Origin: a virus
IMG/VR virus record: IMGVR_UViG_3300008113_000479
Coordinates: 1-64,000 of that record
Direction: 5' to 3' (one strand)
Length of the DNA: 64,000 nt
The position numbers were made by a program, and so were the translations under genes. Positions 12,128 to 53,312 of this stretch are shown here, piece by piece. A model generated the notes under the pieces. That model was not told the origin of the DNA, made no database searches, and saw nothing but the letters and a program-made list of their open reading frames with translations. How positions within the stretch are numbered: the first letter of the stretch is position 1; every line of letters begins with the position of its first letter.

Positions 12128-12805
12128 TTAACAGGTCTCTTCTGTGCTTGGGGCAGGAAATTCGCCATTCCATGAAGCACCGTATAAAGTATGCCTCCAA
12201 TTTCCAGATGTAATTCTAGTTACTCTATGTGTAAATTCTTCTGTTACTGGGACTAGTACAAGCATACCAGCTTTAGGTTTAATTTTATATGATTTATGTT
12301 TAAACTCTAACTCTCCACCTTCAAAATCATCATTTAAATAAATAGACAACGATCTATTAAATGCGGGCATAGGGCTGCCTGCAGCCCACTCTGAATGCCA
12401 GTCCATTGCATAATCAATTTTTGATGCTTCTTCTAATGTAATATTTTTAGCTTCCGCAATTTCTTCATTAGTACAATACTTAAATGTTTGAAGAGCATTA
12501 TGAGGTTTATAAATAGGTGGCATTACCTTAAATAATCTATCATATATACCCATAGGTCTATGAAAAACTTCATGATTTATTACAGGTTCATCTCCAGGAA
12601 CTCCAGTACTGCCGTCAGGTCTTCTTGGTAAATCAACTGATATAAATTTATTTAAAATATTTTTATATGGAGAACGCATAGTTGTGTACCACCCTTGATG
12701 GTCATCCATGTATGGCTTAAAAAAATCTAATTCTTCTTGTGTTAAAAAATTATCAATATATTGAAGATCTCCTTCAATTGTAATTAAATCAAGATTATAT
12801 TCCAC
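12128..12805 (-). CDS. 2-oxoglutarate/Fe(II) oxygenase, prolyl-4-hydroxylase type, 225 aa
   Basis: The family uses Fe(II) and 2-oxoglutarate to hydroxylate a substrate. Visible core: HSE (His137-x-Glu139), the strand pair SIYLNDDFEGGELEF, PKAG, then FTHRV (His193) and Arg204 before LYGASW. The first facial acid is Glu where Asp is usual. The gene precedes katG and is last of the oxygenase run. The substrate is unknown. Confidence 0.85.
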   Translation of the reverse strand: MEYNLDLITIEGDLQYIDNFLTQEELDFFKPYMDDHQGWYTTMRSPYKNILNKFISVDLPRRPDGSTGVPGDEPVINHEVFHRPMGIYDRLFKVMPPIYKPHNALQTFKYCTNEEIAEAKNITLEEASKIDYAMDWHSEWAAGSPMPAFNRSLSIYLNDDFEGGELEFKHKSYKIKPKAGMLVLVPVTEEFTHRVTRITSGNWRHTLYGASWNGEFPAPSTEETC

Positions 12806-12821
12806 AATTATTCTCCTTTAT

Positions 12822-13412
12822 TTATTGAATTGAGGCTATTAAAGAAACCCTAGGCTCATTTATTATAGATTGATGAATTATTCCTTTAGGCATATACAAT
12901 ACGTCACCAGCTTCTATTATAAAGGATTCATATGGTTCATTTTCTAAACTTAACGGCTGTTCAAATGGATATTCACTACTATCTTTATAAATTTTATACT
13001 CTACAGAGTTTATCCAGGTCCAAGAATATACTTCTGAATAATCTTTATGTATACTATTATTTTCTCCAGAGCCTAAAAAATCTATTAATATTTTAAAATT
13101 CATTTGATTAACGTGTTTTTTATCTAAAGAAAAAATATTGGACATTTCATCACACTCTGGTAAATTTATAAACCATGCCTGTAAATCAAGTGCTCCATAT
13201 TTAAATAAAGGAACAGTTTGATTTTTTTTATTTTTTAAAAATTCATCATGATTTATCCACTCACCATAATTTGGAATTTCATTAAATTTTTTATCTAAAT
13301 ATTTCATAACATAGTTCCAGTCTGGTGTATCTTTTAATATACCTTTAAATAAAACTGGTTTATTTATATTTTTAGCATTATTAATTTCTGATTTTATTTG
13401 TAAATTATTCAA
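12822..13412 (-). CDS. JmjC/cupin-type Fe(II) oxygenase, 196 aa
   Basis: The segment SIHKDYSEVYSWTW carries the HxD pair (His122, Asp124), and the later AGDVLYMPKGIIHQSI carries the distal His180, as in JmjC/cupin_8 hydroxylases. A related protein is encoded at 52.2-52.7 kb. It overlaps the upstream gene by four bases. The substrate is unknown; such enzymes often hydroxylate proteins or small molecules. Confidence 0.75.
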   Translation of the reverse strand: MNNLQIKSEINNAKNINKPVLFKGILKDTPDWNYVMKYLDKKFNEIPNYGEWINHDEFLKNKKNQTVPLFKYGALDLQAWFINLPECDEMSNIFSLDKKHVNQMNFKILIDFLGSGENNSIHKDYSEVYSWTWINSVEYKIYKDSSEYPFEQPLSLENEPYESFIIEAGDVLYMPKGIIHQSIINEPRVSLIASIQ

Positions 13413-14227
13413 TTATTATTTCCTATCGTTCCAAATATTCCTCTAAGTCTTCTTTGATCTTTATTAAATCCTCCATTAACCGCATGAGCTAATTTAAATA
13501 AATCTGGCACCAATAAGTCCCCCTGTTGCCATATGTGTTCAAGTTTTATATCGCTGTCTAACCAAACTTTAGTAAATATTTCATCGTGCAATAAATTAAA
13601 TTTATCTTTATCTAACTCAGTCGGAGGCATTCCGTTAATAGAATGAAGATTTACTTTTTCACCTCTACCATAAAATGTTCTAATAGTTTTATCATTTGTA
13701 ATCCAATGATTTAATACTAATTTATAAATTGTATCTTCACTATTTTTATTTTCATTTTCTGATTGCCAATAGTTTTTTATTGAAACAGTACATGAATTTA
13801 AAAATTCTTGATCTGTTGTTGTGAATGAGTTATATATTTTTGACATATCTATAAAATATGTTTTACCAGTGTCTGGTTCACAATTAAACAATTCCATGTT
13901 CCACATACCGCTTACATATATATTTTCATTATCTTCTACATGTTCTTGATGCCAACCAAGTATAATTTCATTTTTATTATTTATATTTTTTTCAGTTATA
14001 TGCTTATGATGATCTTCTACATACTCTGAAGGTTTAGTATCCTGTGAATTTGGATACCAATTTAAATTATCCCCAAACAAATGCATTATTTTTGTTTGAG
14101 TTTCAAAATCTACATTTGCATTTCTAAATGCAATTATTTGTTCATTTAAAAAAATATCCTTGTAAATATTAAAATTATTTTTTAACTCATCATATCCAGG
14201 AAACTCTATAGTTTTTATTGTATTCAT
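13409..14227 (-). CDS. TauD/TfdA-like Fe(II) oxygenase, 272 aa
   Basis: The N terminus (IIAFRNANVDFETQTKIMHL then FGD) follows the TauD/TfdA pattern. The metal motif appears as WHQEH (His93, Glu95), and the C-terminal GDLLVPDLFKLAHAVNGG supplies His248, with Arg residues near 259-262. The usual HTD is replaced by HQE. This is a different fold class from its neighbours, so the cluster combines at least three oxygenase types. Confidence 0.7.
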   Translation of the reverse strand: MNTIKTIEFPGYDELKNNFNIYKDIFLNEQIIAFRNANVDFETQTKIMHLFGDNLNWYPNSQDTKPSEYVEDHHKHITEKNINNKNEIILGWHQEHVEDNENIYVSGMWNMELFNCEPDTGKTYFIDMSKIYNSFTTTDQEFLNSCTVSIKNYWQSENENKNSEDTIYKLVLNHWITNDKTIRTFYGRGEKVNLHSINGMPPTELDKDKFNLLHDEIFTKVWLDSDIKLEHIWQQGDLLVPDLFKLAHAVNGGFNKDQRRLRGIFGTIGNNN

Positions 14228-14229
14228 TA

Positions 14230-14928
14230 TTATTTATTAACTGGCCTATAGGAAGTTGCAGAAGTCTTTGGCATAATTTGTCCTTTAGCCCACTCTTCTC
14301 GTAATTTTTCTCTTAAAGGATTACTATCTTCTTTTATTTTTTTTAAATCAACATCGTATACGCTATCTGCGTAGTCATATGATCCCATCATTGTGTATCT
14401 AGTACCAGATGTTACTTCAGTAACTGCATGTACATTTTTAATCCCTACATCAAAAACAATGACTGATCCAATTTCTGGTTTAAAAGCAAGCTTATGATCT
14501 CTAAAAGTTAAAAGTCCTCCTTCAAAGTCATCATTTAAATATATCATTGTAACTAATTTATTTTCCTGCCAAGCATTAGGAGTGCCATCAAGTTCAGTAT
14601 TATCTGAATGATCCGCTGCAAATGCTCCTGGCTCCCACCTATGCGAACTCAAACTTATTTGTTTTAATTTTCTATTAAATACTTTTTCTGCTAATTCCTG
14701 TGAAGCTAATTGAAATTTTCTTAAAGATTGTCCACCCTCTGGAGTATGTGGTTTTTTACCAGCTATAGTATACATATTGTAAAAGCAAGACAGCATCCAG
14801 TCATCAAGTTCTTTCCAATAAGAAATTATATAGTTGCACTCTTCTTTTGTAAAAACATTTTTATATTCAACAATGTCAGATTTATGTATAATTTCTGTCA
14901 TATTTGAGGGGTAAGTTATTTTTTCCAT
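14230..14928 (-). CDS. 2-oxoglutarate/Fe(II) oxygenase, P4H type, 232 aa
   Basis: HSD (His107, Asp109), MIYLNDDFEGGLLTF, KPEIGSVIVFD, then NVHAVTEV (His167) and GTRYTMMGSY (Arg177) make a complete catalytic set. The C-terminal 45 residues are an extra basic, helical tail. An internal leaderless promoter precedes it. Confidence 0.88.
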   Translation of the reverse strand: MEKITYPSNMTEIIHKSDIVEYKNVFTKEECNYIISYWKELDDWMLSCFYNMYTIAGKKPHTPEGGQSLRKFQLASQELAEKVFNRKLKQISLSSHRWEPGAFAADHSDNTELDGTPNAWQENKLVTMIYLNDDFEGGLLTFRDHKLAFKPEIGSVIVFDVGIKNVHAVTEVTSGTRYTMMGSYDYADSVYDVDLKKIKEDSNPLREKLREEWAKGQIMPKTSATSYRPVNK

Positions 14929-14935: not shown

Positions 14936-14941
14936 ATTATA
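14936..14941 (-). promoter_or_regulatory. -10 box for a leaderless start inside the oxygenase operon
   Basis: Read leftward, TATAAT lies at 14941-14936, inside the stop region of the upstream gene, and the ATG is at 14928, seven bases on. It would allow separate transcription of the genes from 14928 leftward. Confidence 0.45.
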
Positions 14942-15149
14942 CCATCCTATCCCAAATAACGTAAGTGGATTCAGTTTTTCTTTTATTATATAGGTCTATA
15001 GATAATTTTTTATTTGTTCCTTGATAGCGCTCTCCAGTTTCCATATCTACTAGCATCCATTTTGCAGGACATTTTGTATAGACTGTAATTGTAACTGGAT
15101 TTTCCAACTCCTCAACTTTATCACCATTTAATAACTTTCTATGTTTCAT
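14937..15149 (-). CDS. hypothetical protein, 70 aa
   Basis: I start at the ATG in the TAATG overlap with the upstream stop (MKHRKLLNGDKVEELENPV). A TTG four codons earlier is possible. The product is a small beta-rich domain with one Cys-Pro (YTKCPAKWML). It sits among oxygenases and could be a partner or substrate, but nothing in the sequence shows this. Confidence 0.6.
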   Translation of the reverse strand: MKHRKLLNGDKVEELENPVTITVYTKCPAKWMLVDMETGERYQGTNKKLSIDLYNKRKTESTYVIWDRMV

Positions 15150-15748
15150 TAATTTAGCCAACTAACTATAGAATATCTAGTTCCATTTTTTATTGGTTTT
15201 ACTGAATGATTGTATACGTACGTTGATGGGAAAACAAGAAATTCATTTGCCTTTGGCTTATATTCAATATTAAATCTTGGAAAACAAATTTCTCCACCCT
15301 CATAATCATCATTTATATACCAAACTGTAGATATAGTTCTTGGTTCAAATATATTATGGTCAATATGATCTGAAAACTGAGATCCTTTGGAATATTTTAA
15401 AATAGAATATCCTCTGTGTTCTGGAACTACAACATTATAATAATTTTGATAATCTAATTCTAATGGTGCAGAAAACTCTGTCACTTTATCTCTTACATAA
15501 GATTCCAGCATATGTTTTTGAGAGAATATATCATTATTTATTTTATTGTACTCAACAAAGTATGTTTTTGAGCTTCTGCTTTGATCAATTGTTGATTCTC
15601 CATCTTTATAAACATATGAATCGGCCCAAAAAATTTCTGGATTATTAAGGTCCATAAAATGTTCTATGGCTGGAATGAACTGTTCATGGGTTTTCATAAC
15701 ATTTGAATATACCATAATACCTGGAGCTATTTCCTTTTTATTTATCAT
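15149..15748 (-). CDS. 2-oxoglutarate/Fe(II) oxygenase, P4H type, 199 aa
   Basis: The start MINKKEIAPGIMVY follows GGTGG. HID (His128, Asp130), STVWYINDDYEGGEICFPRF, YNHSVKP (His181) and NGTRYSIVSWL (Arg191) form the full active site. It is a clear paralogue of the protein at 52707-53312: EIAPGI near the start and the FPSTYVYNHSV block are nearly identical. Confidence 0.9.
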   Translation of the reverse strand: MINKKEIAPGIMVYSNVMKTHEQFIPAIEHFMDLNNPEIFWADSYVYKDGESTIDQSRSSKTYFVEYNKINNDIFSQKHMLESYVRDKVTEFSAPLELDYQNYYNVVVPEHRGYSILKYSKGSQFSDHIDHNIFEPRTISTVWYINDDYEGGEICFPRFNIEYKPKANEFLVFPSTYVYNHSVKPIKNGTRYSIVSWLN

Positions 15749-16250
15749 TAAACCACCAATGATCTGACTCAGCAAAATGAAAAAATATCATTGCTACTTT
15801 TTGATTTTCTGGATTTGGAAAACTTTCTCTCCAATGCATTTGATCTTCTCCGCAATAAGCTATTGCTTCGTTCGGATACAGAGTATAAGATTGGTTTTCT
15901 ATCCATAGGTCCCAGGGTTCGGTTTGATATACACACATATCTATTGTATATGTGCAAGCATTTTTATCTTTATGTTTAAATAAACTAGCATTGTTTTCAT
16001 AATGAACAAATAAAGAATATGTAGGGAGTATATTTTGATTACTAAATATATTTTTAGCAATAGGTAAAATTTTGTTAGACCACTCTTTTAAAATTGGTCT
16101 TCCAACCATGTCTATAGAATATCTGGAAAACTCTTTTTCTATTGGAAATGTATTATAGTCAGTAAATGAATTAGATATGATATCAAAGTCTTCTTTATTA
16201 AATAAATTTTTTATAATTTTTGGTTTAAAAGATTGTAAATCATAATTCAT
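15738..16250 (-). CDS. 2-oxoglutarate/Fe(II) oxygenase-like protein, 170 aa
   Basis: HKD (His93, Asp95) and GEDQMHWRESF (His139) give the metal triad, with the beta-strand pattern DLWIENQSYTLYPNEAIAY between. The 2-oxoglutarate-binding basic residue is less clear (Lys151 is a candidate). It overlaps the next gene by 11 bases. It is shorter than its neighbours. Confidence 0.72.
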   Translation of the reverse strand: MNYDLQSFKPKIIKNLFNKEDFDIISNSFTDYNTFPIEKEFSRYSIDMVGRPILKEWSNKILPIAKNIFSNQNILPTYSLFVHYENNASLFKHKDKNACTYTIDMCVYQTEPWDLWIENQSYTLYPNEAIAYCGEDQMHWRESFPNPENQKVAMIFFHFAESDHWWFNDK

Positions 16251-16354: not shown

Positions 16355-16573
16355 CTATACTTTCTTTGGCCTACCTGTTTTTTTAGGACCCATATTTGTT
16401 TCTCTACGGATGCCATGTTTATTACGATCAACTCTTGTCATTGATCTTTGATTTGCAATTCCAGATCTAAACTTACCTTGATTTGGATTTTTACGAGTAG
16501 CTTCTTGAGAAGTTACTGCACCAGATGGCTCATTATTTGGTGGAGTTTGCATTCCAGTTCCGTTATCACTCAT
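16355..16573 (-). CDS. small basic protein, 72 aa
   Basis: The start MSDNGTGMQTPPNNEPSG has Pro in its first 17 residues and is followed by a Lys/Arg-rich part ending GRPKKV, like an AT-hook-type tail. It looks largely disordered. It overlaps the upstream small gene by eight bases. Confidence 0.6.
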   Translation of the reverse strand: MSDNGTGMQTPPNNEPSGAVTSQEATRKNPNQGKFRSGIANQRSMTRVDRNKHGIRRETNMGPKKTGRPKKV

Positions 16574-16715
16574 TGATGAATGAAGTTCTTTGTTGTGGAG
16601 TTGCTGTCATGTTTAATGTTAAACCAGCTTCTCCGTCTCTTGTTACATCTAACATAGGAGCAGAAACAATTCCTGTTTCGCTACCTACTGATTCGCAGCC
16701 ACATTCGTAACACAT
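16566..16715 (-). CDS. small Cys-rich start protein, 49 aa
   Basis: ATG at 16715 to TGA at 16568-16566. It begins MCYECGCESVG, three Cys in seven residues, which could bind iron or zinc. The remainder is beta-rich. It is part of the operon of small proteins feeding into the oxygenases. Confidence 0.55.
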   Translation of the reverse strand: MCYECGCESVGSETGIVSAPMLDVTRDGEAGLTLNMTATPQQRTSFINE

Positions 16716-16718
16716 AAA

Positions 16719-16868
16719 TTACTTAGGGCCTTGTGCTTGTGCTTGATTTGAAACATCTGTTGATGGGAATGCTGCCTTTGGTGCTTCTGTGTATGACTCT
16801 GTTGGCCATGGTGAAGATCCTGCTGGCTTAGTCTCGTTAAAGCCTGTTAAATTTTTTCCGTCTGACAT
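16719..16868 (-). CDS. small Pro/Ala-rich protein, 49 aa
   Basis: ATG at 16868 follows AGGAGATATAAA. The product MSDGKNLTGFNETKPAGSSP continues with more Pro, Ala, Ser and Gln and has no hydrophobic core, so it is probably disordered. As the first gene of the operon leading to several prolyl-hydroxylase-type enzymes, it is a reasonable candidate substrate, by position only. Confidence 0.6.
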   Translation of the reverse strand: MSDGKNLTGFNETKPAGSSPWPTESYTEAPKAAFPSTDVSNQAQAQGPK

Positions 16869-16944: not shown

Positions 16945-17568
16945 CTACCCCAAAACGGTGTCTAAGCCACGATATTCTGAGGGCCAGAAGAAAGAAACTA
17001 TAACATTTCTTTGACCTTCAGTTACTTTAGATACCCTATGTGGTAAATCATGGGATCCCTGAAAAAAAATAAATGTTCCAGGATTTGGCTTAATGTAAAA
17101 ATTTTCTTCTGGAAATTCTAATATACCGCCTTCGTATCCATCATTTAAATAAAGAAGCCCAGACCAATCGTCTTTTGAATTTTTTCTAATACTTTCTATA
17201 TTATCAATTTCATGATAATTATCAGTATGTAAATCATTTTCTGATCCTTTTAACATTAGGCTATAAAACATAGTTTTTATATCCATTTGTTTATTTGTAA
17301 AATTAGATATAGTATTAGACATTGAGCTACAAACCATGGTTAATAAATCGACTGCTAAGTCATGCTGATTTTCATTTTTGTATTTTATTATAGGATTACC
17401 ACATTGATACGTATAGCCATCTTCAGGTTTTAATGATGGACCACCTTTAATTTGAAAATTAGGTGTATCTGATAAATCTTTATTAAATACCTCTGTAATA
17501 AGATTTGCACTACTAGTAGATATATAATTTTCAATTATATAAATTTTATTGTTTATATTTTTTATCAA
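16945..17568 (-). CDS. 2-oxoglutarate/Fe(II) oxygenase, P4H type, 207 aa
   Basis: HTD (His114, Asp116), GLLYLNDGYEGGILEFPEEN, PGTFIFF, HDLPHRVSKV (His177) and GQRNVIVSFFW (Arg187) are all present. The start is a TTG overlapping the upstream stop. The substrate is unknown. Confidence 0.9.
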   Translation of the reverse strand: MIKNINNKIYIIENYISTSSANLITEVFNKDLSDTPNFQIKGGPSLKPEDGYTYQCGNPIIKYKNENQHDLAVDLLTMVCSSMSNTISNFTNKQMDIKTMFYSLMLKGSENDLHTDNYHEIDNIESIRKNSKDDWSGLLYLNDGYEGGILEFPEENFYIKPNPGTFIFFQGSHDLPHRVSKVTEGQRNVIVSFFWPSEYRGLDTVLG

Positions 17569-18116: not shown

Positions 18117-19130
18117 TTACTTCTTTAAAGCAACCTTCTTTTTAGGAAATGCCTTATTCCAGGCTGTAGCTAATTTATTGTAATCAGCCTTTTCCTTAAT
18201 AATTGCTGCATCGGCAATTACTTTTGCTGCTGCTGCAGCATCTGCTGCAATTTTATTAGCAGCAACTGTTGAATTAGCATCTGCCAATTGCTTAGACAAA
18301 GAATTAATTTGTGCTTGCAACTGTGCAATTGTTCCATTCAAATCAGTTACTGTAAATGATGCTACAACTGCCTTTACTGGAACATTTAATCCAGTTACTG
18401 CTGTTGCTGAAGAGGCACCAGTTACTGCAATAGTTACTGTTCCAACTGTTGCTACTGCCAAGCTTTCTTTCTTTGATCCTAGAACTAATGTAGAGTCTGC
18501 TGCAACTTGTGCTGCTGTAGACGTCACAATTTGTTTTGAAATTGAGCCATCTGCCCATACTCCACCAATTAATGTTGCAGTTACTGTGTCAGATACTGGG
18601 TTTCCAAATACATCTGACGTGCTAACTGTAATTTGAGGAATTGTTCCTACTGCTACTGCAGTTGGTACGGATACTCCAACATTTGATACAGAACCAGCAA
18701 TTCCCTTAATGAAAACAACTGTTGAGTATGATCCATTTACAATTGTAACTGAACCTGTCGATGTGGATGTAGTAAATGCATACACAGTTACTGCAGCACC
18801 TGTAGAGGTTACTGAGTATGATGTTGCACCTGCAGAAGAGTTAACTACTGCATTTGTTGCACTAAGTGCTGTGACTAGCTTAACTCCACCTGTTGCGGTG
18901 AATGAAACTACAGTTCCAGTGTCTGCTGTCGCTGCTAAAGCAACTGCATCTGCTGAATCTACTGTGTTGTCGGCTGGAACGTTCGCAGTCGCAGGCGCTG
19001 TAGATGTTGTAGCATTTGCTGAACCAGCAACGGTTACCACAAGTGGTGCTGCTGATGCATTAATTGATTGAATGCCTAGTAATGCTAGGGCTGCAGCCGA
19101 AGCAACGGCAATCTTTTTTAATGACTTCAT
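18117..19130 (-). CDS. secreted surface protein with signal peptide, 337 aa
   Basis: A Sec signal peptide (MKSLKKIAVASAAALALLGI, cleavage near ASA-A at residue 27) is followed by about 230 residues rich in Thr, Ser, Ala and Val, like Ig-type or S-layer modules. Then comes a coiled coil (LQAQINSLSKQLADAN) and a Lys-rich tail ending KKKVALKK. This architecture is typical of actinobacterial cell-surface proteins and not of virions. It may coat the infected cell or have been taken from a host. It has a strong AGGAG site and its own terminator. Confidence 0.75.
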   Translation of the reverse strand: MKSLKKIAVASAAALALLGIQSINASAAPLVVTVAGSANATTSTAPATANVPADNTVDSADAVALAATADTGTVVSFTATGGVKLVTALSATNAVVNSSAGATSYSVTSTGAAVTVYAFTTSTSTGSVTIVNGSYSTVVFIKGIAGSVSNVGVSVPTAVAVGTIPQITVSTSDVFGNPVSDTVTATLIGGVWADGSISKQIVTSTAAQVAADSTLVLGSKKESLAVATVGTVTIAVTGASSATAVTGLNVPVKAVVASFTVTDLNGTIAQLQAQINSLSKQLADANSTVAANKIAADAAAAAKVIADAAIIKEKADYNKLATAWNKAFPKKKVALKK

Positions 19131-22829: not shown

Positions 22830-23130
22830 TAGGAACTCCTTCCAGCTCACATCTTACGCCATATGACTCAAGTAATTTTTTTACTTTTAATACATAGTCT
22901 ATGACCATTTCTTTTTTAACGCCTTCAAACTGTATAAAGTTATCTTCATATAATCTTATTGCTAAAAATTCTGGATATTTTACTATATCCATCTGTAAGT
23001 TGTTAACTGGCTTTGTAATTCCTCTTATTGCTTTTGACATTTCTGGTGTATAAAATACTGGCTTGTTTGGTTCGCCAGTCCATTGATTAATTCCATGTTT
23101 AAAATGATTTTTGTTTTTATCAATAAACAT
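22810..23130 (-). CDS. hypothetical protein, 106 aa
   Basis: A basic N terminus (MFIDKNKNHFKHGINQWTGE) is followed by an alpha/beta region. No recognised domain. It overlaps WhiB by 11 bases and the next gene by 20. Confidence 0.65.
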   Translation of the reverse strand: MFIDKNKNHFKHGINQWTGEPNKPVFYTPEMSKAIRGITKPVNNLQMDIVKYPEFLAIRLYEDNFIQFEGVKKEMVIDYVLKVKKLLESYGVRCELEGVPSERILR

Positions 23131-23431
23131 TTTTCTTTTTCAATCTTTTCCATGTGTCACTTGTTTTATGTAAATTTCTAGTTTTATCAATTGTCCCAGA
23201 GTTTAAATAAACTCCGCCCCATACGCCATACTCATTGTTATCTGATCCAGATTTATAGCACATTGCTATAACAGGACATGCTAAACATGCTTCATCAATA
23301 TTTTTTGCAATTTTAGAATCGTTTTCATATTTATCATAAAATAAATTGGTGTCCATGCCTCTGCAAACTGCAAGGTGCCACCAGTCTAAATCGTCTTTAT
23401 CTACCCCTAGATCATTTAAAATATTTGACAT
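23120..23431 (-). CDS. WhiB-family iron-sulfur transcription regulator, 103 aa
   Basis: Four conserved Cys (23, 49, 52, 58: AVC then CLACPVIAMC) would hold a [4Fe-4S] cluster. The turn GVWGGVYL (residues 69-76) and the basic C terminus complete the family pattern. WhiB proteins bind the host sigma factor and redirect transcription, and some sense oxygen or NO. The family is confined to Actinobacteria and their phages. It is the second gene of a unit with a strong promoter and palindrome. Confidence 0.93.
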   Translation of the reverse strand: MSNILNDLGVDKDDLDWWHLAVCRGMDTNLFYDKYENDSKIAKNIDEACLACPVIAMCYKSGSDNNEYGVWGGVYLNSGTIDKTRNLHKTSDTWKRLKKKNVY

Positions 23432-25927: not shown

Positions 25928-28432
25928 TTACCCCCTTATTCTCATTATTGTACTACCAAGTATTACTTGACCAACTAAAATTGCTGCAACTAAAACTTCT
26001 TTAGCATCTTGTCTTTCTTGTGGAGACATATCTGCTCCAATATTTGCTAATGCTTTACTCAACTCACACTTTTGTTCTTCAGTTAATCCTTCAATTGCTT
26101 CATCTGGATTAAAGCATCCAGCAATTGCATTAACAAGTGCTGCTGGAGATTCTAACGTGAGTAATGCTGAGGCGACTTCTGCTGTAATAACTACTGGATT
26201 ACCGCTAGCATCTTCTCTAACTTCTACTGGAATTGATGGTGGTAGGTCTCGGTATTCAAGGCCCGCTGCTTCAATTGCTGCTGCTTCTACTGGAGCACCT
26301 TCTGCTGATGTAACTAAAACATCTGCAACTAAATCTTTTTCTGCTAATGTCAGAACACCATCTTCAGATAATGCTTCAGATAAATTAACAACTTCATTTA
26401 CAGTAATTTCTCCATCTGCAAAAAGTATTTCTGTAATTAATTCAGATTCTTCTATAGACAATCCGCCTTTAGACAATGTAGAAGATATCTCAGAAATAAC
26501 CTCTTCTGAAACTTCTCCGCCTTCAGAAATTAATTCTAATATTGCATCGGCATCCTCAGCTGTTAAATTTCCATCTTCAATTAAATCACTAACAACCTCT
26601 TGAGCCTCTTCAACAGTTAATTCTTGCTCCTCTACTGCTGGTTCGTCAATAACTGGCTCATCAACTACTGGTTCTTCTATTATTGGCTCTTCTATAACAG
26701 GTTCGTCAATAACTGGCTCATCAACTACTGGTTCATCAATAATTGGTTCATCAATAATTGGTTCTATTGGTGTTATGTAAGATGGCTGTGACGGCACACT
26801 AATTATTTCTTCTTGTGGAATTGTAATAATAGTTTCAACATACTGGCTTACTGGACCAGACCAGTTTGCAATTCTAATTGTATATGAAGCACCTTCTGTT
26901 AATCCAGTTAATTGAATAGATTCTGGTGCGCCGTCTGTATTATATGTCCCACCAGCATAAGGATTTTCTGCTGTTGGGTCGTCAGTAATTACTTGATAAA
27001 ACCATGTGTTTGGAGTATATCCAGAAGGCAATTCTGGTGTAACAGTTACTGTTGTGCCATCTACTACTGCTTGAGATATTATTGGCGCAGGAGTTGGTAT
27101 ATTATTATTAATAACGGTTATAAGTTGATTAGACTTAGTATTTAGTGTTGATTGCAATGATGTTTTTGTTGATAGTGCTGAATTTAAAGTATTTGTTAAA
27201 GAATTTGTATTAATAGAATTTATTACAGAAGTATTTAAAGTATTTTGTGAAACAACTGGACTCAAGCTTTGGTTTAATTGTGTAATAGTGGCATTAGCTG
27301 CATCTACTGCTGCTTGAACGGTTGATGTATTTGGATCTACATATGGAGTAAATGATGGACCCTGACTAATTTGTCCAGAAAATCCAGTACCAGTATTAGT
27401 GTCTGTAATTTCAGTAATTGTGCCATTATTTGTTTCTCTATAATTAAATCTTGCTCCGCCTGGTATTGGTCCAACTGCTGTTACATTTGCCATCCATGCA
27501 CCATCATTTGGATTTACATCTGCATTGAATCTAATTTGAACCATTTGTGTAGAAGCATCTTGTTGTGGATAAGGCCTTAAATCCCAAGCAATGTCTAAAC
27601 TTGTTCCAGTAGTTGAATATGTAATTCCAGTTCCTGTACTCCAAGTTGTCCAGTCCCATCCAGCAATAGAAACTGATGGGGCATCTGGAGTTTGATAATA
27701 AACCCATCCCTGATCGACACCAAATGTTATTGTTGCATTTGATCCTACATAAACATCATTATAAACTGTTCCGCCCATTTGCATTCCAAAAGGTAAAGTC
27801 ATTCTTACTCCAGCGTCATCTACGCCAGCCAAAACGTTTGTTGTTGTTCCAATAGTTGCCTGTAAATTATTTACTGCTGTTTGAGCATTATCAATAGCAA
27901 TATTTGCCTGAGTTAATTCTGTTTGAGCAGTTGCCTGTGCTGTAGAGGCTGCTGTTTTTGCTGCAGTGACTTGAGATATTTCAGTCTGTGCTGCGGTAAC
28001 AGTAATGCTATCTATTGATGTTTGAGCAGATGTAATAGTTAATTTAGCATCTTGAACTATTTGAGAGCTTTGATCTGTTGGTGTTGCTACTATATTAATA
28101 TTATTTATCGTAGTAGTTGCAGTATCAACTAAATTAATTGCTGTTTGGGCCATTGAAATACTTTGAGATACTTGTGTTACTGCTGTTTGAGCTTGAGACA
28201 ACTCTGTTTGTGCCACTGATACTAGTGCTGTAGATGAGTCCGTTGCTGCAATAGCTTGTTGAACTTCTGTGTTAGCTATACCAAGAGCATTATTTACTGC
28301 TTGTTGCGCTGGGCTTACTATTACCTGTTCTTGTCCGCCCTGCTCTGTAGCCCACGCATAACTTGGCCCAATAAAAAATAGCCAACCTGTTACAAAAAGG
28401 CTAGCTAAAAAGTATTTTAACTTTCTACTCAA
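25928..28432 (-). CDS. large secreted surface protein, 834 aa
   Basis: I use the TTG at 28432 because GGAG lies six bases upstream; a TTG at 28444 would add four residues. A signal peptide or membrane anchor (residues 4-30) precedes a Thr/Ala/Gln-rich helical region, a beta domain (VGSNATITFGVDQGWVYY), an Fn3-like domain (residues about 440-520), an acidic Pro-Ile-Glu-Asp repeat (26.62-26.77 kb) and helical repeats. The last 60 residues include MSPQERQDAKEVLVAAILVG. It may be displayed on the infected cell or be a virion fibre; the signal argues for the first. Confidence 0.7.
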   Translation of the reverse strand: MSRKLKYFLASLFVTGWLFFIGPSYAWATEQGGQEQVIVSPAQQAVNNALGIANTEVQQAIAATDSSTALVSVAQTELSQAQTAVTQVSQSISMAQTAINLVDTATTTINNINIVATPTDQSSQIVQDAKLTITSAQTSIDSITVTAAQTEISQVTAAKTAASTAQATAQTELTQANIAIDNAQTAVNNLQATIGTTTNVLAGVDDAGVRMTLPFGMQMGGTVYNDVYVGSNATITFGVDQGWVYYQTPDAPSVSIAGWDWTTWSTGTGITYSTTGTSLDIAWDLRPYPQQDASTQMVQIRFNADVNPNDGAWMANVTAVGPIPGGARFNYRETNNGTITEITDTNTGTGFSGQISQGPSFTPYVDPNTSTVQAAVDAANATITQLNQSLSPVVSQNTLNTSVINSINTNSLTNTLNSALSTKTSLQSTLNTKSNQLITVINNNIPTPAPIISQAVVDGTTVTVTPELPSGYTPNTWFYQVITDDPTAENPYAGGTYNTDGAPESIQLTGLTEGASYTIRIANWSGPVSQYVETIITIPQEEIISVPSQPSYITPIEPIIDEPIIDEPVVDEPVIDEPVIEEPIIEEPVVDEPVIDEPAVEEQELTVEEAQEVVSDLIEDGNLTAEDADAILELISEGGEVSEEVISEISSTLSKGGLSIEESELITEILFADGEITVNEVVNLSEALSEDGVLTLAEKDLVADVLVTSAEGAPVEAAAIEAAGLEYRDLPPSIPVEVREDASGNPVVITAEVASALLTLESPAALVNAIAGCFNPDEAIEGLTEEQKCELSKALANIGADMSPQERQDAKEVLVAAILVGQVILGSTIMRIRG
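26620..26770 (-). repeat. short tandem coding repeats (Pro-Val/Ile-Ile-Asp-Glu)
   Basis: About ten copies of a 12-18 base unit encode EPVIDEP/EPIIEEP variants in the large surface protein. The units are near-identical at DNA level, which favours expansion and contraction. Confidence 0.65.
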
Positions 28433-42068: not shown

Positions 42069-42282
42069 CCTGATTATCAGCTGGTTGTTCAATGTTCTCC
42101 TTTAATTGAAATACAAATTCTTTTGTCTCTTCATTATATTCAACATTTAAGTTTTTTTGTTCAGCACCTGAACTAATAAATACATCAAGCGGTATGTTTA
42201 CTACTTTTTGAGTATCTAAAATTGCTACTAAAATTTTTGTAGCATTCATAGCTTCAAATATTTCATTTGGCGTTTGAGTCAT
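42052..42282 (-). CDS. hypothetical protein, 76 aa
   Basis: A beta-rich acidic protein (MTQTPNEIFEAMNATKILVA...) following GGAAATAAA. It overlaps the end of the polymerase fragment by four bases. No family recognised. Confidence 0.65.
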   Translation of the reverse strand: MTQTPNEIFEAMNATKILVAILDTQKVVNIPLDVFISSGAEQKNLNVEYNEETKEFVFQLKENIEQPADNQDAPTE

Positions 42283-44288
42283 TTTATTTCCTTTATCATT
42301 AGGGTTCCATCGTCTAGTTTTGACAGAACAGGTTTGCTTTTCATTCCTTCACGCATTTTTGCTAAAACTTTTGCATACATTGCTGGGAAAGCAATTGCTC
42401 TGGTTAGCTCTTTATTTTTATCTGTCATTACAATATGCGCCATTGTTTTGCCAGCTTTAGTTTTATATGGACTAAAATTAATTACAAGTTTTTCATCATC
42501 TTCTAAATCATATTCTTTTCTATATAAATAATCTACAAATAAATCTGGTCCGTTTGGATCTATGTCATTTACTTTTATATATCTTGCAATTCTATTATCT
42601 CCCACAAGAATAAAATACATTTGGCCAGTTTCAATTTGTGTCTGCTCATTATGAAATAATCCAATTGATCCAGTTTCATCTACCAATTCTACTCTTGCCC
42701 AACCAGTACCACGTTTAATGCTTTTAACCATTCCAAACATTGGGAATGAGCCTAAATCATCAAAGTCTTGAATTGGTTTTGCTTGAGCTTTAATTCTTGG
42801 TGGTATCGATTCTAAATTAAATGTAGGTATTCCTAAGTATTCGTAGTAACTTTCTTTTTCCTTACCGCCTCTAAGATTGTCCTCGAAAGCAGCACCGCCA
42901 ATAGCATTGAGAGCAGATACAGCCCTACTGTTAATACCACTACCTTTCGCAGAGGCTTTTTGTATGAAGTCGGAATAATTGGCATATGGCCTTCTTTCTA
43001 TAATTTTGTTTGCAATGCTATCTGAAATAAATTTAATTTCAGCCAAACCAAACTGAATCGCATTTTCTTTTAATGAAAAATATACATCTGATTCATTAAT
43101 GTGTGGTAGTAGTATTTTAAGATTTAATCTTTTAGCTTCAATTAAATATTCTGTTCTTTTGTCTTTATCATTTTCGTTTTTAAGAATTGAAAAAATAAAT
43201 TCAAGTGGGTAGTAATGCTTAAGCCAAGCCGTATAATAACTAAGCATGGAATAAGCAACAGCGTGACTACGATTAAAAGAATAACCTGCGTGAGCTTCAA
43301 AATCATGCCATAGGGATTCCGCTTTCTTTTTAGAAATGTGCTTTGAAGCCCCATTAACAAATTGATCTTTGAACTGGTCGAACTCTTTTGCATCTTTCTT
43401 CTTTCCAATAATCTTGCGGACCTTGTCAGCCTCTGACCAAGACATTCCACCTAAGTAGACGCAAGCTTGCATAACTTGCTCTTGATATATAATAACACCA
43501 TATGTATTCTCTGTAAAAGGCTTCATAATTTCATGGACATAACTAACATTTTCTACGCCATGTTTTCTATTAATATATGAAGCGCCTACTGTATTCATTG
43601 CTCCTGGCCGAACTAGAGCATTTGAGGCAGCAAGGTCTTCAAATTTATCTACACCCATTTTAATTAATAAATTTGTATAAGGGGTTGCTTCTGCCTGAAA
43701 CACTCCCTTTGTATAGCCTTCACTTAATGTTTTATAAACATCTGCGTCATCAAATGGCAAGCTAGACAACACTATGTCTTTGCCATGTCTTTCTTTAATT
43801 GCTTTTATTGTATCTGAAATTACTGATAGCGTTTTTAATCCTAGGGCATCTACTTTAATTAAGCCAATATCTGCTACAGTATCCATATCATATGCAACTA
43901 CTGGGATTCTTCCTGAAACTTTATCCTGTGAATCTTCACGAGATTCAATAGGTGCAAAATTTCTTAAATCATCTTTTGCAACTACTACTCCTGCAGCGTG
44001 GACTCCAACGCTTCTAATTTTTCCACGTAATCTTTCTGCAAGCCATAACACCTCTGGATACTTCATTCTAAATTCTTTAGTGTTTGGAGAATCCATAAAA
44101 TCTTCAAATGTATCAATTGATTTCATTGCACGATTTACATCTTGAAGTGGAACCATAAATACACGAGCAGCATCTCTAATTACACCCTTGTCTTTAAAAT
44201 AAGTGTAGGTGGAAATAGAAGCAACATGCTTAAACTTCTTCTTTAAATAATCTTTAACCTCTTTACGACGACGGTCTTCAAAGTCTGT
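42279..44288 (-). pseudogene. dnaE: DNA polymerase III alpha, C-terminal fragment (no own start)
   Basis: The frame begins at the junction near 44288 with TDFEDRRRKEVKDYLKKKF, which in intact enzymes directly follows the catalytic PDID motif. It has SVGVHAAGVVV, GLIKVDALGLKTL (third catalytic Asp), YQEQVM, FNRSHAVAYS, fingers and the OB-fold tail, 669 codons in all. The stop TAA at 44291-44289 lies just upstream in this frame. The first in-frame ATG is at 44156. About 50 residues with the GS loop and the first two catalytic Asp are missing between this piece and the N-terminal piece. Confidence 0.88.
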
Positions 44289-45415
44289 TTATTTTCTTTA
44301 GCCCAATTAATCATGTCTGCTACTACTAGGAAATATGATGCAAAGCTTTTATCTTTAATAATTTCTAATTCTTCAATTAATCTTTGTTCATATCCGTCAT
44401 TTCCAAGCCATGACGAGGTCAGGCGTAGTGTTTCTAGGCCTTTAAAGGCCATTTGGGACAACTTTTCATCGGCATCTGTCTTAGGTACTGGGAGGAGATC
44501 TAAACCCCTGTTAAAATCGTATTCTCCAATTTTTTCAGATATCTCAATAGTATTATCATATATATCCGTACGAGTAATTCCAGCCTTATTAAAGTCAGCC
44601 TCAATTTCAGACCTTGATTGAATAAATAAATTATAGTCTTGAAATGATATTCTTCTGTCTGGGTACAGGTAATTAAATCTATCCAGCATATTATTCATAT
44701 TCTTGGACATTTCAAAATCTGCTTCTTTATCTGATTTAGGAGATGTAGATAGAATAAGCATTGCTTCTTCTAGTATTTTATCTTCTCCTTTAGCAAAATG
44801 AGCATCTCCAGTTGCTACTGGCTTTATATTTAATTTATCTGCTAGATCTAATAAATTGCTATTTATTTCTTTGGGGTTATGAGATTGTACTTCAATGTAA
44901 AAATCTTCGCCAAAAGTTTTCTTAAAATCTTTAAGTAGAATTTCCGCTTCCTCAAGGTTTCCTTTTTCAATGCACTTACTAATAAGCCCATTAAGGCATC
45001 CAGAAAGAACAATAATATCTTCTGCATATTCTTTTAGAACCTCCCTGTCAATTCTAGGCTTATGATAAAAACCTTCATTCCAAGCTAACTCTTGAAGTCT
45101 ATTTATATTACTTAATCCATTTTGATTTTTAGCCAATAAGATAATGTGATTATATGCCTGAATACTTTTATCTGTTTTTGATGACCTATCAAATCTATCT
45201 GTTGGTGATATGTAAGCCTCTACTCCAAGAATTGGTTTAATTCCAATTTCTTTACAGGCCAATTGCATTTCTCTATGTGATGAAAGTGTACCATGATCTG
45301 TTATGGCAATAGATGTCTGTCCAGCATCTTTTGCAGCCTGTGCTAGTTCTAGTGGAGAGTTAAGGCCATCCATTAGGCTGTAGTAACTATGTACGTGTAA
45401 GTGTGTAAAACTCAT
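44243..45415 (-). pseudogene. dnaE: DNA polymerase III alpha, N-terminal PHP fragment
   Basis: The start MSFTHLHVHSYYSLMDGLNS is the PHP domain of a replicative polymerase, with AGGCGG upstream. The match continues through FASYFLVVADMINWAKEN (about residue 374). Intact enzymes then have a GPGRGS-type loop, but this frame reads QTLKTVVVKRLKII and stops at 44243. Thus 376 residues are genuine and 14 are out of frame. A deletion of roughly 150 bases, not a multiple of three, at 44282-44291 explains both fragments. Confidence 0.88.
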
Positions 45416-45621
45416 TAATAACCGCCTAAACAAATATTTCGTGTATGACTTAGCCTAGTTTTTGTTATTATTTTTTTACTTGGAGCATACAATACCTCTA
45501 GGCAAGTACTGCATTTATAACTCCACTCTTTGGCAAAATAATCATATATAGCTCCAGATAGTTTAAGGTTTCTGTTTCTAACAAATTCCATAAATGGATC
45601 TGGTATCTCATAAGTTTGCAT
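45415..45621 (-). CDS. small zinc-binding protein, 68 aa
   Basis: CSTC (residues 37-40) and a later Cys in RNICLGGY suggest a partial zinc site. The N terminus (MQTYEIPDPFMEFVRNRNLK) is helical. It overlaps the polymerase start and is first in that operon. Confidence 0.62.
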   Translation of the reverse strand: MQTYEIPDPFMEFVRNRNLKLSGAIYDYFAKEWSYKCSTCLEVLYAPSKKIITKTRLSHTRNICLGGY

Positions 45622-49936: not shown

Positions 49937-50067
49937 TTTCCAAATCTATTCGTTTCTTTATTAATCATCCATCGTTTTCCGCATAGAATACAAAATAGTT
50001 CTACATGAAGTTTTTGAGAAAAAACTCTATCTACGAATACTCTTCCAGAACATTTACCGCACCACAT
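49882..50067 (-). CDS. small zinc-ribbon protein, 61 aa
   Basis: CGKC (residues 3-6) and CILCGKRW (26-33) form a zinc ribbon, with a helical basic tail. The ATG overlaps the phosphoesterase stop. Confidence 0.65.
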   Translation of the reverse strand: MWCGKCSGRVFVDRVFSQKLHVELFCILCGKRWMINKETNRFGKWLEKKDREYAKNFSISS

Positions 50068-50882
50068 TATAAAGTAAACAGCTTTCCATCAACAACGCAT
50101 GTGTAGTCTGGTGATATATGTATCATATTAACGTGAGGGTATTTTCCATTCTCAATATGAGCAACAGCAAATCCTTTTTGCCAATCATGGTGTTGAGTAT
50201 ACTTCATACCTGGACCCTTTTCGTCACACATGTGTCCAATTTCATAGCCTCTAATTGTTTCACCTTTACCCTTGTTTCTTAATTCATATGTTACCATATG
50301 TGAAGCAATTCTATGTGAGTGTCCACGAATTAATGAGATCTGAAGGTCTTCCATATCTTTTCTAATTGCACCAGTGGCTGAAACTGACATGCCGTGGTGT
50401 ACGTGGATATCTCCAAATCTACGCTTAGGCAATTCATTATAATAAATATAGTCATACCCTAAAGAATCTAAACTCCACAAGGCTTCTGGTGTTACATGCT
50501 TTGCATACTCTGGGATTTTTTTATCTAAATAATCAAAAATTCTAATATCATGATTTCCTAATGCAGAAAATAATTGTGCGTCTGGGAGCATCTTTCTTGT
50601 TCTAGCATAAAATTCACGAGCACCACTTGCCTCTAATTTCATGTCTTTAAGCATTAACTCTAAATCATTTGTTACGTTATCATCTTTATATGCTTTAATA
50701 AACTCTGTTGGCTTGCCATCTGTATATTTACTGTAGCATGCCTGATCATCTGTATCTCCAAGATAGTCTACGACATCTGGCTTAAACCATTTCATTACCT
50801 TAAACCAAAGCTCAATTGCTTTATTATCTTGATATGGAAATTGTTGATCTGAAGACAGCATCCACTTTAAATCATTAGACAT
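50067..50882 (-). CDS. calcineurin-like metallophosphoesterase, 271 aa
   Basis: The motif series SSDQQFP, YLGDTDDQ, ALGNHDIRIF, VHHGMSV and RGHSHR holds the two-metal site. Proteins of this size in phages may be nucleases (SbcD/Mre11-like) or nucleotide phosphatases. Its place among replication genes favours DNA work, which is inference. Confidence 0.88.
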   Translation of the reverse strand: MSNDLKWMLSSDQQFPYQDNKAIELWFKVMKWFKPDVVDYLGDTDDQACYSKYTDGKPTEFIKAYKDDNVTNDLELMLKDMKLEASGAREFYARTRKMLPDAQLFSALGNHDIRIFDYLDKKIPEYAKHVTPEALWSLDSLGYDYIYYNELPKRRFGDIHVHHGMSVSATGAIRKDMEDLQISLIRGHSHRIASHMVTYELRNKGKGETIRGYEIGHMCDEKGPGMKYTQHHDWQKGFAVAHIENGKYPHVNMIHISPDYTCVVDGKLFTL

Positions 50883-50968: not shown

Positions 50969-51397
50969 TTAAATATTTTTAAGTTGTGTGGCCATCCAAT
51001 TAATATTTACTAACATTGTAGCTTTGGAGTTATTGCTTACGGCATATATTGTTCCACCTGTTTTATCTGCATTTAGTACTGTAGCGACTGAAACAACACC
51101 TGTTGATGCAGTTAACGCTTGTCCCATAGAGGCAACAAATCCAGTTTCTGATCCAGCAATAAAAGATGGTGTAAATGTTACTGCTACGGATACGGGAGTT
51201 GTTCCTTTTAATGTTACTGATTCTGATCCTTGATCAGAAACTGCTACTCTATTTTGACCGCTAGCATCTTTTGTAGCATTTAATAAACTTGTAGATTTTG
51301 TAAAAACGTCTGTTAAATTTGACTGTAATTGATTTAAATCATTAGGGTCAAATGGGGCACCCTCATTAAATGTTACAACTTTCCAATTTGCTGCCAT
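50969..51397 (-). CDS. small structural (tail-associated) protein, 142 aa
   Basis: The start MAANWKVVTFNEGAPFDPND then LNQLQSNL is a pattern of short tail-end proteins that set an alignment helix. A Thr/Val/Ala-rich beta domain follows (residues 55-140). Position at the end of the tail genes supports a virion role. Confidence 0.65.
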   Translation of the reverse strand: MAANWKVVTFNEGAPFDPNDLNQLQSNLTDVFTKSTSLLNATKDASGQNRVAVSDQGSESVTLKGTTPVSVAVTFTPSFIAGSETGFVASMGQALTASTGVVSVATVLNADKTGGTIYAVSNNSKATMLVNINWMATQLKNI

Positions 51398-51795
51398 TAT
51401 AAATTTTCTCCTAATTCATGTGAATTTATCTCTGACTCACTGACCTCTACTACCTTAGACCTATTAAGTCCATATTTAGAGAATGAATCTGGGTCCACAA
51501 TATGACGCTTTTTATTTTGCGATATTAAATACATTTTACCATCTGCAATGTTCTTGATCAAAGCGCCATCTCTAAATCCTAATTTGCCAGACTGCTTAAT
51601 CAAAGATAATGCTGATTCTGTAGCATTTACTGTAGTAAAAGACCAAGACTCTTCTGCTCTCTTAGATATCAATTTATACCTTTTCCCATCTTTAATCCAG
51701 TAGGTGCCCTTGTCTGTTTTAACAGCAATGCCTGAAGGAAAATCAGTCGGAGAGGTTATTAAGATGCTCTGAGTATTCTTCTTTAGCTTTAGCAT
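51397..51795 (-). CDS. protein with two beta repeats, 132 aa
   Basis: I start at the ATG at 51795 (MLKLKKNTQSILITSPTDFP), with AAAGGA upstream. Two similar repeats, GIAVKTDKGTYWIKDGKRYK and ALIKNIADGKMYLISQNKKR, each end in an aromatic-basic strand, as in wall- or glycan-binding repeats. It may bind the cell surface. Confidence 0.62.
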   Translation of the reverse strand: MLKLKKNTQSILITSPTDFPSGIAVKTDKGTYWIKDGKRYKLISKRAEESWSFTTVNATESALSLIKQSGKLGFRDGALIKNIADGKMYLISQNKKRHIVDPDSFSKYGLNRSKVVEVSESEINSHELGENL

Positions 51796-51916
51796 TTTCC
51801 TTTTCCATAAGCTGTGTAATCTCTGCACGTAATATTGCAATTTGAGTTTCATAATTTGATACCAGTTCACCCATTCGTTGCTGTAGAGCCGTGATAATTA
51901 ATTCTGCTTTTTCCAT
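51743..51916 (-). CDS. small coiled-coil protein, 57 aa
   Basis: ATG at 51916 to TGA at 51745-51743. The product MEKAELIITALQQRMGELVS is a continuous helix to the end and overlaps the next gene by 53 bases in another frame. It is similar in style to its 70-residue neighbour. Confidence 0.6.
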   Translation of the reverse strand: MEKAELIITALQQRMGELVSNYETQIAILRAEITQLMEKENAKAKEEYSEHLNNLSD

Positions 51917-52135: not shown

Positions 52136-52152
52136 TTTTTACCTCCTTTATT

Positions 52153-52158
52153 ATTATA
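52153..52158 (-). promoter_or_regulatory. extended -10 promoter
   Basis: Read leftward, TGTTATAAT ends with TATAAT at 52158-52153, followed by AAAGGAGG and the ATG at 52135. It drives the small structural genes toward the 50.9 kb terminator. Confidence 0.55.
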
Positions 52159-52188
52159 ACATAATTAGACTTTTTTAACCAGCCTAAT

Positions 52189-52707
52189 TTAAACATATTT
52201 ATTTCTAATAGAATACGCAATTCCTACCCTTGGAGCAGAAACTGTTGTTACTTCATGCGGAGTTCCTGTTGGCAAGTAAACCATGTCTCCTGAATTTAAT
52301 ATCTTTTTAATTAAAGACCCGTCTCCCTTTTTAATTTTCCATTCTGCAGATCCTAAACAATTTAAATGTATTTGTTGACAAGAGTCTTGATGCTCTTTTA
52401 ATCCGCTGGTGGGTCCAAGTGTATCTGACATAATAACTGCTGGTTCGTCCCAAACAAGGTCCCCCCATATTTTATAAAGACCATTTCTTAAAATATTAAA
52501 TCCGTCAAATTTTTTCATTAAAGGAGACCCTGTAGTTTCAAAAGCTATTGACAAATTATTATTTTCCCATCTAGTAGGTCTTCCATAATTTGCCTCTTTG
52601 CGATAATTTAAAAAATCTTCCCATGATTCTTTAAAATCAATTTTAGATTCTATAAAGCCAATTTTATTATTTTCTTTTAACTCAATAAGATTTTTTATCC
52701 AGTCCAT
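52189..52707 (-). CDS. JmjC/cupin-type Fe(II) oxygenase, 172 aa
   Basis: HQD (His106, Asp108) in GLKEHQDSCQQIHLN and SGDMVYLPTGTPHEVTTV (His151) match the JmjC-like protein at 12822-13412. It overlaps the P4H-type gene by one base, so the two oxygenase types are again paired here. Confidence 0.75.
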   Translation of the reverse strand: MDWIKNLIELKENNKIGFIESKIDFKESWEDFLNYRKEANYGRPTRWENNNLSIAFETTGSPLMKKFDGFNILRNGLYKIWGDLVWDEPAVIMSDTLGPTSGLKEHQDSCQQIHLNCLGSAEWKIKKGDGSLIKKILNSGDMVYLPTGTPHEVTTVSAPRVGIAYSIRNKYV

Positions 52708-53312
52708 TAATCAAGCCAGCTAACTACGGCATACCTTGTGCCGTTATATACTTTATTTACTGAATGATTGTATACATAAGTTGATGGAAATATCAACATA
52801 GAATTTTTTTCTGGCTTATAAGATAAATTAAATCTTGGGAAATTGATTTCTCCTCCTTTATAGTTATCGTTTATATACCATGCGGTTGAAATTGTTCTTG
52901 GATATGTTAAATCATCATCTAAATGATTTGAAAAAAAATGTCCTTCTCCATATTTTAATAATTGATAAGAGTCATGTGTTTTTGTTTTAACTCCGTACAT
53001 TGATTTATAGTCTTCTTCAACTGGGTGCATAAATTCATAAAGTTTTTTTCCTAAATTATAATCAAATATTTCTTTAACATTTTCTGGCTCTATCTTTTTT
53101 AATTTTGGGTAAGAACAATGAAATACATGTAAATTCCTTACGCTATAATCTATAACATCTTTTCCATCTTTTAAAATATGTGGCTCAATCCAATTTAATC
53201 CTGTTTCATTTAACGATAAAGACTCTTCTATATCTTCTATAAAATTTAAATATGAGTTTTTTATGTTTCTATATATTACAATACCAGGAGCAATTTCTTC
53301 TTTTTCAAACAT
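52707..53312 (-). CDS. 2-oxoglutarate/Fe(II) oxygenase, P4H type, 201 aa
   Basis: The ATG at 53312 lies in a TAATG overlap. HLD (His130, Asp132), STAWYINDNYKGGEINFPRF, FPSTYVYNHSV (His183) and NGTRYAVVSWL (Arg193) are complete. It is the paralogue of 15149-15748. Its location beside tail genes suggests a virion or surface target. Confidence 0.9.
   Translation of the reverse strand: MFEKEEIAPGIVIYRNIKNSYLNFIEDIEESLSLNETGLNWIEPHILKDGKDVIDYSVRNLHVFHCSYPKLKKIEPENVKEIFDYNLGKKLYEFMHPVEEDYKSMYGVKTKTHDSYQLLKYGEGHFFSNHLDDDLTYPRTISTAWYINDNYKGGEINFPRFNLSYKPEKNSMLIFPSTYVYNHSVNKVYNGTRYAVVSWLD

Follow-up and report, generated by a model that had tools for sequence, protein, structure and literature searches.

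The 64,000-nucleotide window analysed here (bases 1-64000 of the 71,982-bp viral record IMGVR_UViG_3300008113_000479, denoted G000) carries ten genes of the Fe(II)/2-oxoglutarate (2OG) oxygenase type, which belong to a set of 21 in the assembled genome of this freshwater phage. Proteins with tandem repeats lie close to these genes far more often than chance placement would give. Read from the genes alone, the explanation favoured, at slightly better than even, is that most of the enzymes act inside the cell as protein hydroxylases and finish fibre proteins encoded by the phage itself. Records and loci are denoted below by G and L numbers.

Oxygenase genes of the window and of the genome

An initial annotation, made from the sequence alone, had placed ten oxygenase-type open reading frames (ORFs) of three classes in the window: prolyl 4-hydroxylase (P4H) type, JmjC/cupin type and TauD type. 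All ten were recovered at the annotated places, on the minus strand; the end of the last gene was corrected from 53312 to 53318. Ratios of nonsynonymous to synonymous substitution (dN/dS) are those between species.

12128-12805, minus strand: P4H-type 2OG-Fe(II) oxygenase, H137-x-E139, H193 (PF13640, 34.7 bits; dN/dS 0.18)
12822-13412, minus strand: small JmjC/cupin-type oxygenase, H122-x-D124, H180 (JmjC_2, 28.3 bits; dN/dS 0.27-0.29)
13409-14227, minus strand: TauD-type oxygenase, H93-x-E95, H248 followed by RR (PF02668, 51.7 bits; kept in L154 and L156)
14230-14928, minus strand: P4H-type oxygenase, akin to core-module enzyme E (PF13640, 42.5 bits; 41% to G004 35545)
15149-15775, minus strand: P4H-type oxygenase, likely start 15748 (PF13640, 54.6 bits; 46% paralog of 52707-53318)
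15738-16250, minus strand: predicted P4H-fold oxygenase of PHROGs 2954/3531, H93-x-D95, H139 (PHROG match and predicted model; dN/dS 0.11)
16945-17568, minus strand: P4H-type oxygenase, inserted as a single gene when compared with G007 (PF13640, 42.7 bits; alignment break; dN/dS 0.18)
33396-34040, minus strand: P4H-type oxygenase (PF13640, 45.5 bits; 48-53% to module genes of L210, L213 and L226)
52189-52707, minus strand: small JmjC/cupin-type oxygenase, H106-x-D108, H151 (JmjC_2, 26.3 bits)
52707-53318, minus strand: P4H-type oxygenase (PF13640, 56.3 bits)

The three classes agree with profile searches, in which nine of the ten proteins exceeded the curated Pfam cut-off (27 bits for PF13640), so that the set does not consist mostly of unmatched proteins. 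Six matched PF13640 (E 4e-8 to 6e-15; 34.7-56.3 bits); protein 13409 matched the TauD profile over residues 17-264 (E 1.5e-13) and carries the HxE...H...R set of the TauD/TfdA family; and the two JmjC-type proteins gave short partial matches to JmjC_2 (PF08007; 37 residues of 12822 at E 1.4e-6 and 33 residues of 52189 at E 5.9e-6). Using phmmer, protein 52707 was matched to the bacterial P4H structures 3itq and 5hv0 (E 6e-4); PDB sequence searches with the TauD and JmjC proteins returned no matches. The metal-ligand set, HxD/E with a later H, was retained in all ten proteins, the PF13640 proteins included (6/6). Loss of these ligands was also looked for in relatives: the genes of the cluster at 12-17.6 kb keep them between species and are under purifying selection (dN/dS 0.11-0.31), which excludes chance occurrence. 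Activity of the ten, as initially proposed, is plausible from enzyme class and ligand set.

The window covers part of a larger genome. Record G004 matches G000 in rotated order at bases 1-7.2 kb and 44-72 kb, the identity being approximately 100%, and the join between the two is bridged by contig G023; G004 and the 36-kb contig G022, from the same metagenome, jointly cover nearly the whole map. The assembled map is circular and approximately 113.4 kb long (relative G007, 113,072 bp). Eleven further P4H-type genes lie in the part outside the G000 record, giving 17 P4H-type, one TauD, two JmjC and one 15738-type gene. Because the map holds these 21 oxygenases, the earlier count of ten understates the genome. 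By the common yardstick used for cross-genome counts (PF13640, E <=0.001) the whole genome scores 14.

Linkage to repeat fibre proteins

Over whole genomes, an oxygenase gene is found no farther than 1.3 kb from a tandem-repeat protein in 16 of 22 cases, against 6.7 expected, a count reached in none of 20,000 rotations. Proline-dense proteins as a whole were likewise enriched close to oxygenases (14 of 29 within 1.2 kb, 8.0 expected, p 0.01), a weaker measure that was set aside.

One point of linkage is a conserved core oxygenase module located outside the window, with the order A-B-DUF6065-DUF6065-like-C-D-E-F and up to seven P4H genes. The block of this genome occupies 29.0-39.0 kb of G004, with enzymes A-F at 30447-36976. 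It opens with fibre genes and an fn3 protein whose repeat is of the (PPFF)n type and whose tail is intein-like, followed by P4H genes A and B; it continues through DUF6065, a second DUF6065-like protein and P4H genes C, D, D', E and F; and it closes with a collagen-repeat protein and a second PFF-repeat protein, after which come tail, portal, protease and capsid genes. A scan of viral contigs yielded 524 related stretches, and P4H genes with DUF6065 were present in every one of the best 80 of these. In eight loci read gene by gene the module follows an array of fibre genes and, where the contig reaches, precedes the tail, portal, protease and capsid genes. A PFF-repeat ORF was located no more than 3.5 kb upstream of the module in all 49 loci with enough upstream sequence, at a median distance below 100 bp and mostly below 150 bp. 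In L052 the proteins on either side of the module (L052:9513-10850 and L052:18589-19503) combine long PPFFPFF repeats with an intein/Hint-like tail. The first H and the D of the ligand set were conserved in 278/278 distinct module P4H proteins, and the second H in each of the 274 proteins that extend that far. DUF6065 (L052:12322-13041), found always within the module, has a predicted dUTPase-like fold (E 5e-4) and was absent from a collection of 50,697 phage records. Collagen (GXY) repeats were rejected as a general substrate: in this species and its near relatives they lie downstream of the module, but a pattern search did not detect them in the more distant loci. In L210 a glutathione-peroxidase-like gene (L210:12865-13638) lies inside the module, and SDR and FkbM-methyltransferase genes come after it. 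Within the window, protein 33396 shares about 50% identity with an enzyme of the core module in more distant relatives.

The second point of linkage is a fibre slot at 50-58 kb of the window, made up of oxygenases 52189 and 52707 and the following genes.

50067-50882, 50969-51397 and 51397-51870, minus strand: conserved anchor genes on one side of the slot (synteny in nine records)
53312-53545, minus strand: 77-amino-acid CxxC protein (sequence similarity)
53972-55582, minus strand: fn3 fibre protein with (TPAV)n stalks (fn3; 12-bp arrays at 54125-54214 and 54540-54589; protein repeat)
56136-58031, minus strand: tail/fibre protein, the anchor on the other side of the slot (43 related viral loci; synteny)

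The two oxygenases are bounded by 51397-51870 and by tail gene 56136-58031, with fibre gene 53972-55582 adjoining. The close relatives of 52189 that were found all belong to contigs of this species. In G011 and L330, relatives of the CxxC protein adjoin slot enzymes; in L210 the relative, which matches DUF6171, precedes the core module. Among seven divergent longer records, a long repeat was present in all three slots with an oxygenase, as (TPAV)n in G000, (PAPT)n in G011 and (NTIATQ)n in G018, versus none of the four without (G007, G015, G019 and G027, the slot of G027 being truncated). Among 26 distinct slot configurations the corresponding counts were 3/3 versus 4/23 (Fisher p 0.013), the three oxygenase slots bearing (TPAV)n again, (TP)n and (NTI)n; the two samples overlap, this species being in both, and are not fully independent. 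Repeat runs measured 27-40 residues in slots with an oxygenase and at most 19 in those without, a contrast noticed afterwards. In G011 and G018 the slot oxygenases are followed directly by a gene of glycosyltransferase family GT60 (PF11397, E 2e-34 and 3e-13). In L330 a GT60 gene lies beside a (TTG)n fibre in a slot without oxygenase.

The cluster at 12-17.6 kb

Seven oxygenase genes lie between the KatG gene and the protein 18117-19130, together with several small genes.

10028-12064, minus strand: KatG catalase-peroxidase bordering the cluster (PF00141, E 8e-69; G007 counterpart in the same position, 88% identical)
14937-15161, minus strand: 74-amino-acid protein conserved inside the cluster (69-73% amino acid identity in L154/L156; dN/dS about 0.2)
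16355-16868, minus strand: three small conserved genes (72, 49 and 49 amino acids) among the oxygenases (78-90% amino acid identity in G007)
18117-19130, minus strand: Ala/Thr/Val-rich protein with a signal-peptide-like start and a coiled-coil-like tail (87-90% amino acid identity in relatives)

Relatives L154 and L156 keep six of the seven oxygenases, with dN/dS in the range given above; 14230 is absent from both, its place being taken by a tandem duplicate of 12128. In G007, whose backbone shares approximately 80% DNA identity, the oxygenases come after the counterparts of the small genes 16355-16868, at the same place, where two other P4H genes stand between these and KatG; 16945 is absent. 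The locus is a site of exchange of oxygenase cassettes.

The cluster is linked to fibres through two of its members. The (TP)n fibre slot of L378 contains a P4H gene and a 15738 relative with 51% identity, a pair of the type seen in 15149/15738, and 15149 is itself the 46% paralog of slot enzyme 52707. No fibre link was found for 12128, 12822, 13409 or 16945, and the fibre link of the seven-gene cluster is the weaker one. The TauD protein 13409 had no match in the 50,697 phage records and may act on a small molecule.

Fragments of katG were seen at the locus ends of L154 and L156, and, of 20 related records searched, 19 lacked the gene; the sole KatG matches in the phage collection resemble host sequence.

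Protein 15738 and phage genes annotated as ferrochelatase

Protein 15738-16250 gave no Pfam oxygenase match; its only matches were to PHROG families named ferrochelatase (2954/3531). An AlphaFold2 model of modest quality (five-sequence alignment, mean pLDDT 65, pTM 0.68) was compared with known structures using Foldseek. The best match was the viral collagen prolyl hydroxylase vCPH of virus PBCV-1 (5c5u, E 6.8e-6), followed by the HIF prolyl hydroxylase PHD2, the matches ranging from E 7e-6 to 1e-3; this modest model has a P4H-like fold with HxD...H. H-x-D and H-W-R are invariant across nine aligned members of the type, five of them annotated as ferrochelatase. No Pfam ferrochelatase match was obtained for 15738 or for five relatives (four annotated as ferrochelatase in pelagiphages and cyanophages). 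Cyanophages carry two-domain fusions of the 15738 type with a P4H domain (PHROG 3531 layout; S-SCSM2R). Phage ferrochelatase genes have been reported always to adjoin a 2OG oxygenase, and the two were described as iron partners (PMC9599517). On the predicted fold the family is better read as P4H-fold 2OG oxygenases working in pairs, and the name ferrochelatase is probably wrong across many phage records. PBCV-1 vCPH (5c5u/5c5t) is likewise a virus-encoded P4H fold with HxD...H, although it comes from a virus of a eukaryotic algal host and shares only about 10% sequence identity; we know of no fibre linkage for it.

Proposed function and alternatives

2OG oxygenases are common auxiliary genes of aquatic phages, and proposals for their purpose name DNA repair, nitrogen metabolism and iron. 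The initial annotation left their substrates open among DNA bases, virion proteins, small peptides and host metabolites; synteny favours virion fibre proteins. In the scheme proposed, fibre proteins with repeat stalks would be made during infection, and the neighbouring P4H-type enzymes would hydroxylate residues of the repeats before assembly, using Fe(II), O2 and 2-oxoglutarate. Proline would be the likeliest residue in PPFF, TPAV, PAPT and TP repeats; judged by fold and neighbourhood, the P4H-type enzymes may hydroxylate peptidyl proline. Asparagine or threonine would possibly serve where the repeat is NTI or NTIATQ; as NTI repeats are without proline, another residue would have to be used there if the model holds. 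In some relatives a GT60-type transferase would then add a sugar. The modified stalk would be altered in stiffness, protease resistance or receptor recognition. Within the window the scheme fits 52189/52707 best, by their (TPAV)n fibre, and next 15149/15738 as well as 33396 and 14230, the last two because they are related to core-module enzymes.

A broader version is put forward tentatively, at somewhat below even: a dedicated post-translational system for virion fibres, in which fibre-specific hydroxylases form cassettes exchanged together with low-complexity repeat stalks, the bacterial-virus counterpart of collagen or extensin hydroxylation, with a hydroxyproline-type N-acetylglucosamine transferase in some relatives. 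GT60 is the family that caps hydroxyproline on Skp1. The Skp1 prolyl hydroxylase PhyA and the GT60 transferase Gnt1 resemble the P4H-type enzyme beside a PF11397 transferase in G011 and G018; they differ in being eukaryotic and acting on a single proline, and in that GT60 was not found in this genome. In cyanophage ACG-2014f a collagen-repeat gene, a glycosyltransferase, a P4H-type gene named PiuC and a short tail fibre gene share one short stretch.

Several observations weigh against fibre hydroxylation. Outside the core module the genome-wide association was not significant (5 of 11 versus 3.3 expected, p 0.22), and the many PFF-linkage points represent one homologous gene pair or neighbourhood inherited together. 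Repeat fibres occur without an oxygenase in 4 of 23 slots. In this genome no oxygenase lies close to 25928-28444 with its acidic-proline tandem repeat (26626-26764); its counterpart in G007, (PPVEE)n, has a JmjC-type oxygenase 65 bp away. No tandem-repeat protein was found adjoining the 12-17.6 kb cluster, a search of this genome for GT60 found none, and repeats of the NTI type contain zero proline. The repeat-run cut-offs were chosen by the analyst during the analysis, and linkage is no proof of substrate.

Auxiliary metabolism, that is, oxidation of host free amino acids, sugars, lipids or secondary metabolites, or a drain on 2-oxoglutarate, is considered rather unlikely. The TauD family, to which 13409 belongs, includes small-molecule enzymes, the genome carries a metabolic gene load (KatG, thioredoxin, Hsp20 and carbamoyltransferase genes), and the module of some relatives contains or adjoins SDR, FkbM and glutathione-peroxidase-like genes, which point the same way; a shared metabolic need, however, would hardly explain many distinct P4H paralogs with a conserved position beside fibre genes, or P4H-type slot enzymes that appear and disappear together with repeat fibres. 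Action on other proteins is likewise unlikely. The targets would be ribosomal or surface proteins of the host, small peptides of the phage, or secreted proteins, of which 18117-19130 would be an example. JmjC_2 includes ribosomal oxygenases, a JmjC gene of G025 lies between two repeat-rich proteins with signal-peptide-like starts, and the small genes 16355-16868 stand among oxygenases both here and in G007. Set against such targets are the position of the conserved core module itself, among fibre genes, and the lack of an adjoining tandem repeat at the 12-17.6 kb cluster.

Modification or repair of DNA or RNA bases by Tet/JBP- or AlkB-like activity, as proposed for cyanophage enzymes, would have its best candidate in 14230, which gave a weak Tet_JBP match below the cut-off (E 0.0018); DNA repair proposals are cited in PMC9146016. 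It was rejected as highly improbable: that sub-threshold match was the only one, the scanned genes yielded no DNA methyltransferase, the oxygenases are placed beside fibre genes, and the best fold and sequence matches are protein hydroxylases.

If fibre hydroxylation is correct, a large gene class would shift from host metabolism to virion finishing, and prolyl-type hydroxylation would be present in phages. Bacteria and viruses have been described as being without the enzymes needed for prolyl-type hydroxylation (PMC3368898, 2012), and a literature search, mostly without subscription journals, found no publication on such fibre hydroxylation. The repeat-stalk link implies a specific substrate, testable with a short peptide and one enzyme.

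Comparison with other phages and probable host

One or two such genes had been taken as usual for aquatic phages and ten as exceptional, an estimate that did not hold. Six cyanophage genomes of 181-244 kb, a high-end sample picked because they match a window enzyme, contain 7-11 PF13640 matches each. Nine scattered 2OG-Fe(II) oxygenase copies were reported in S-SZBM1, with multiple copies in other cyanomyoviruses (PMC9146016), and eight kinds of these oxygenases in pelagiphages (PMC9599517). The count is therefore exceptional only in part; the unusual feature is density, one PF13640 gene per 8 kb here versus one per 17-27 kb in the cyanophages, two to three times the cyanophage level. The enzymes of cyanophages and pelagiphages belong to the same families (PHROG 61, 3531, 2297) and likewise occur in many copies per genome, at lower density and with no DUF6065 relative in the phage collection. 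Viral records sharing the core module had 5-14 PF13640 matches, those sharing only the tail gene had from 0 upward (some being fragments), and a methylophage of 141 kb had three.

The host is likely an actinobacterium (acI), as inferred from gene markers. The WhiB gene at 23120-23431 is a marker of actinobacterial phages, and the closest RecA proteins are those of Streptomyces phages. The Stanwilliamsviridae phages Coruscant and Wofford share a RecA-like protein (54-57% identical), actinobacterial hosts and a similar size (120-134 kb); unlike the present genome, the three Streptomyces phages near by RecA that were searched have zero PF13640 genes. The closest KatG in the genome collection, at 64% identity, is that of Actinobacteria bacterium IMCC25003, which we take to be a freshwater acI strain. 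The PF13640 (P4H) profile was absent from the IMCC25003 genome, and a search of 26 genomes around that one recovered it in just two; because such profiles are absent or rare in acI-related genomes, the phages appear to bring their own P4H enzymes.

Other observations in the window

The region 28621-38242 holds nuclease, Hsp20, carbamoyltransferase and glycosyltransferase genes with a tRNA-Met, possibly serving surface-sugar or nucleotide functions. The DnaE polymerase III alpha gene is split into two ORFs (42279-45433); alignments to relatives break at 44288/44289, near the ends of two other contigs of the species, and the split may reflect a deletion, an intein site or an assembly fault.

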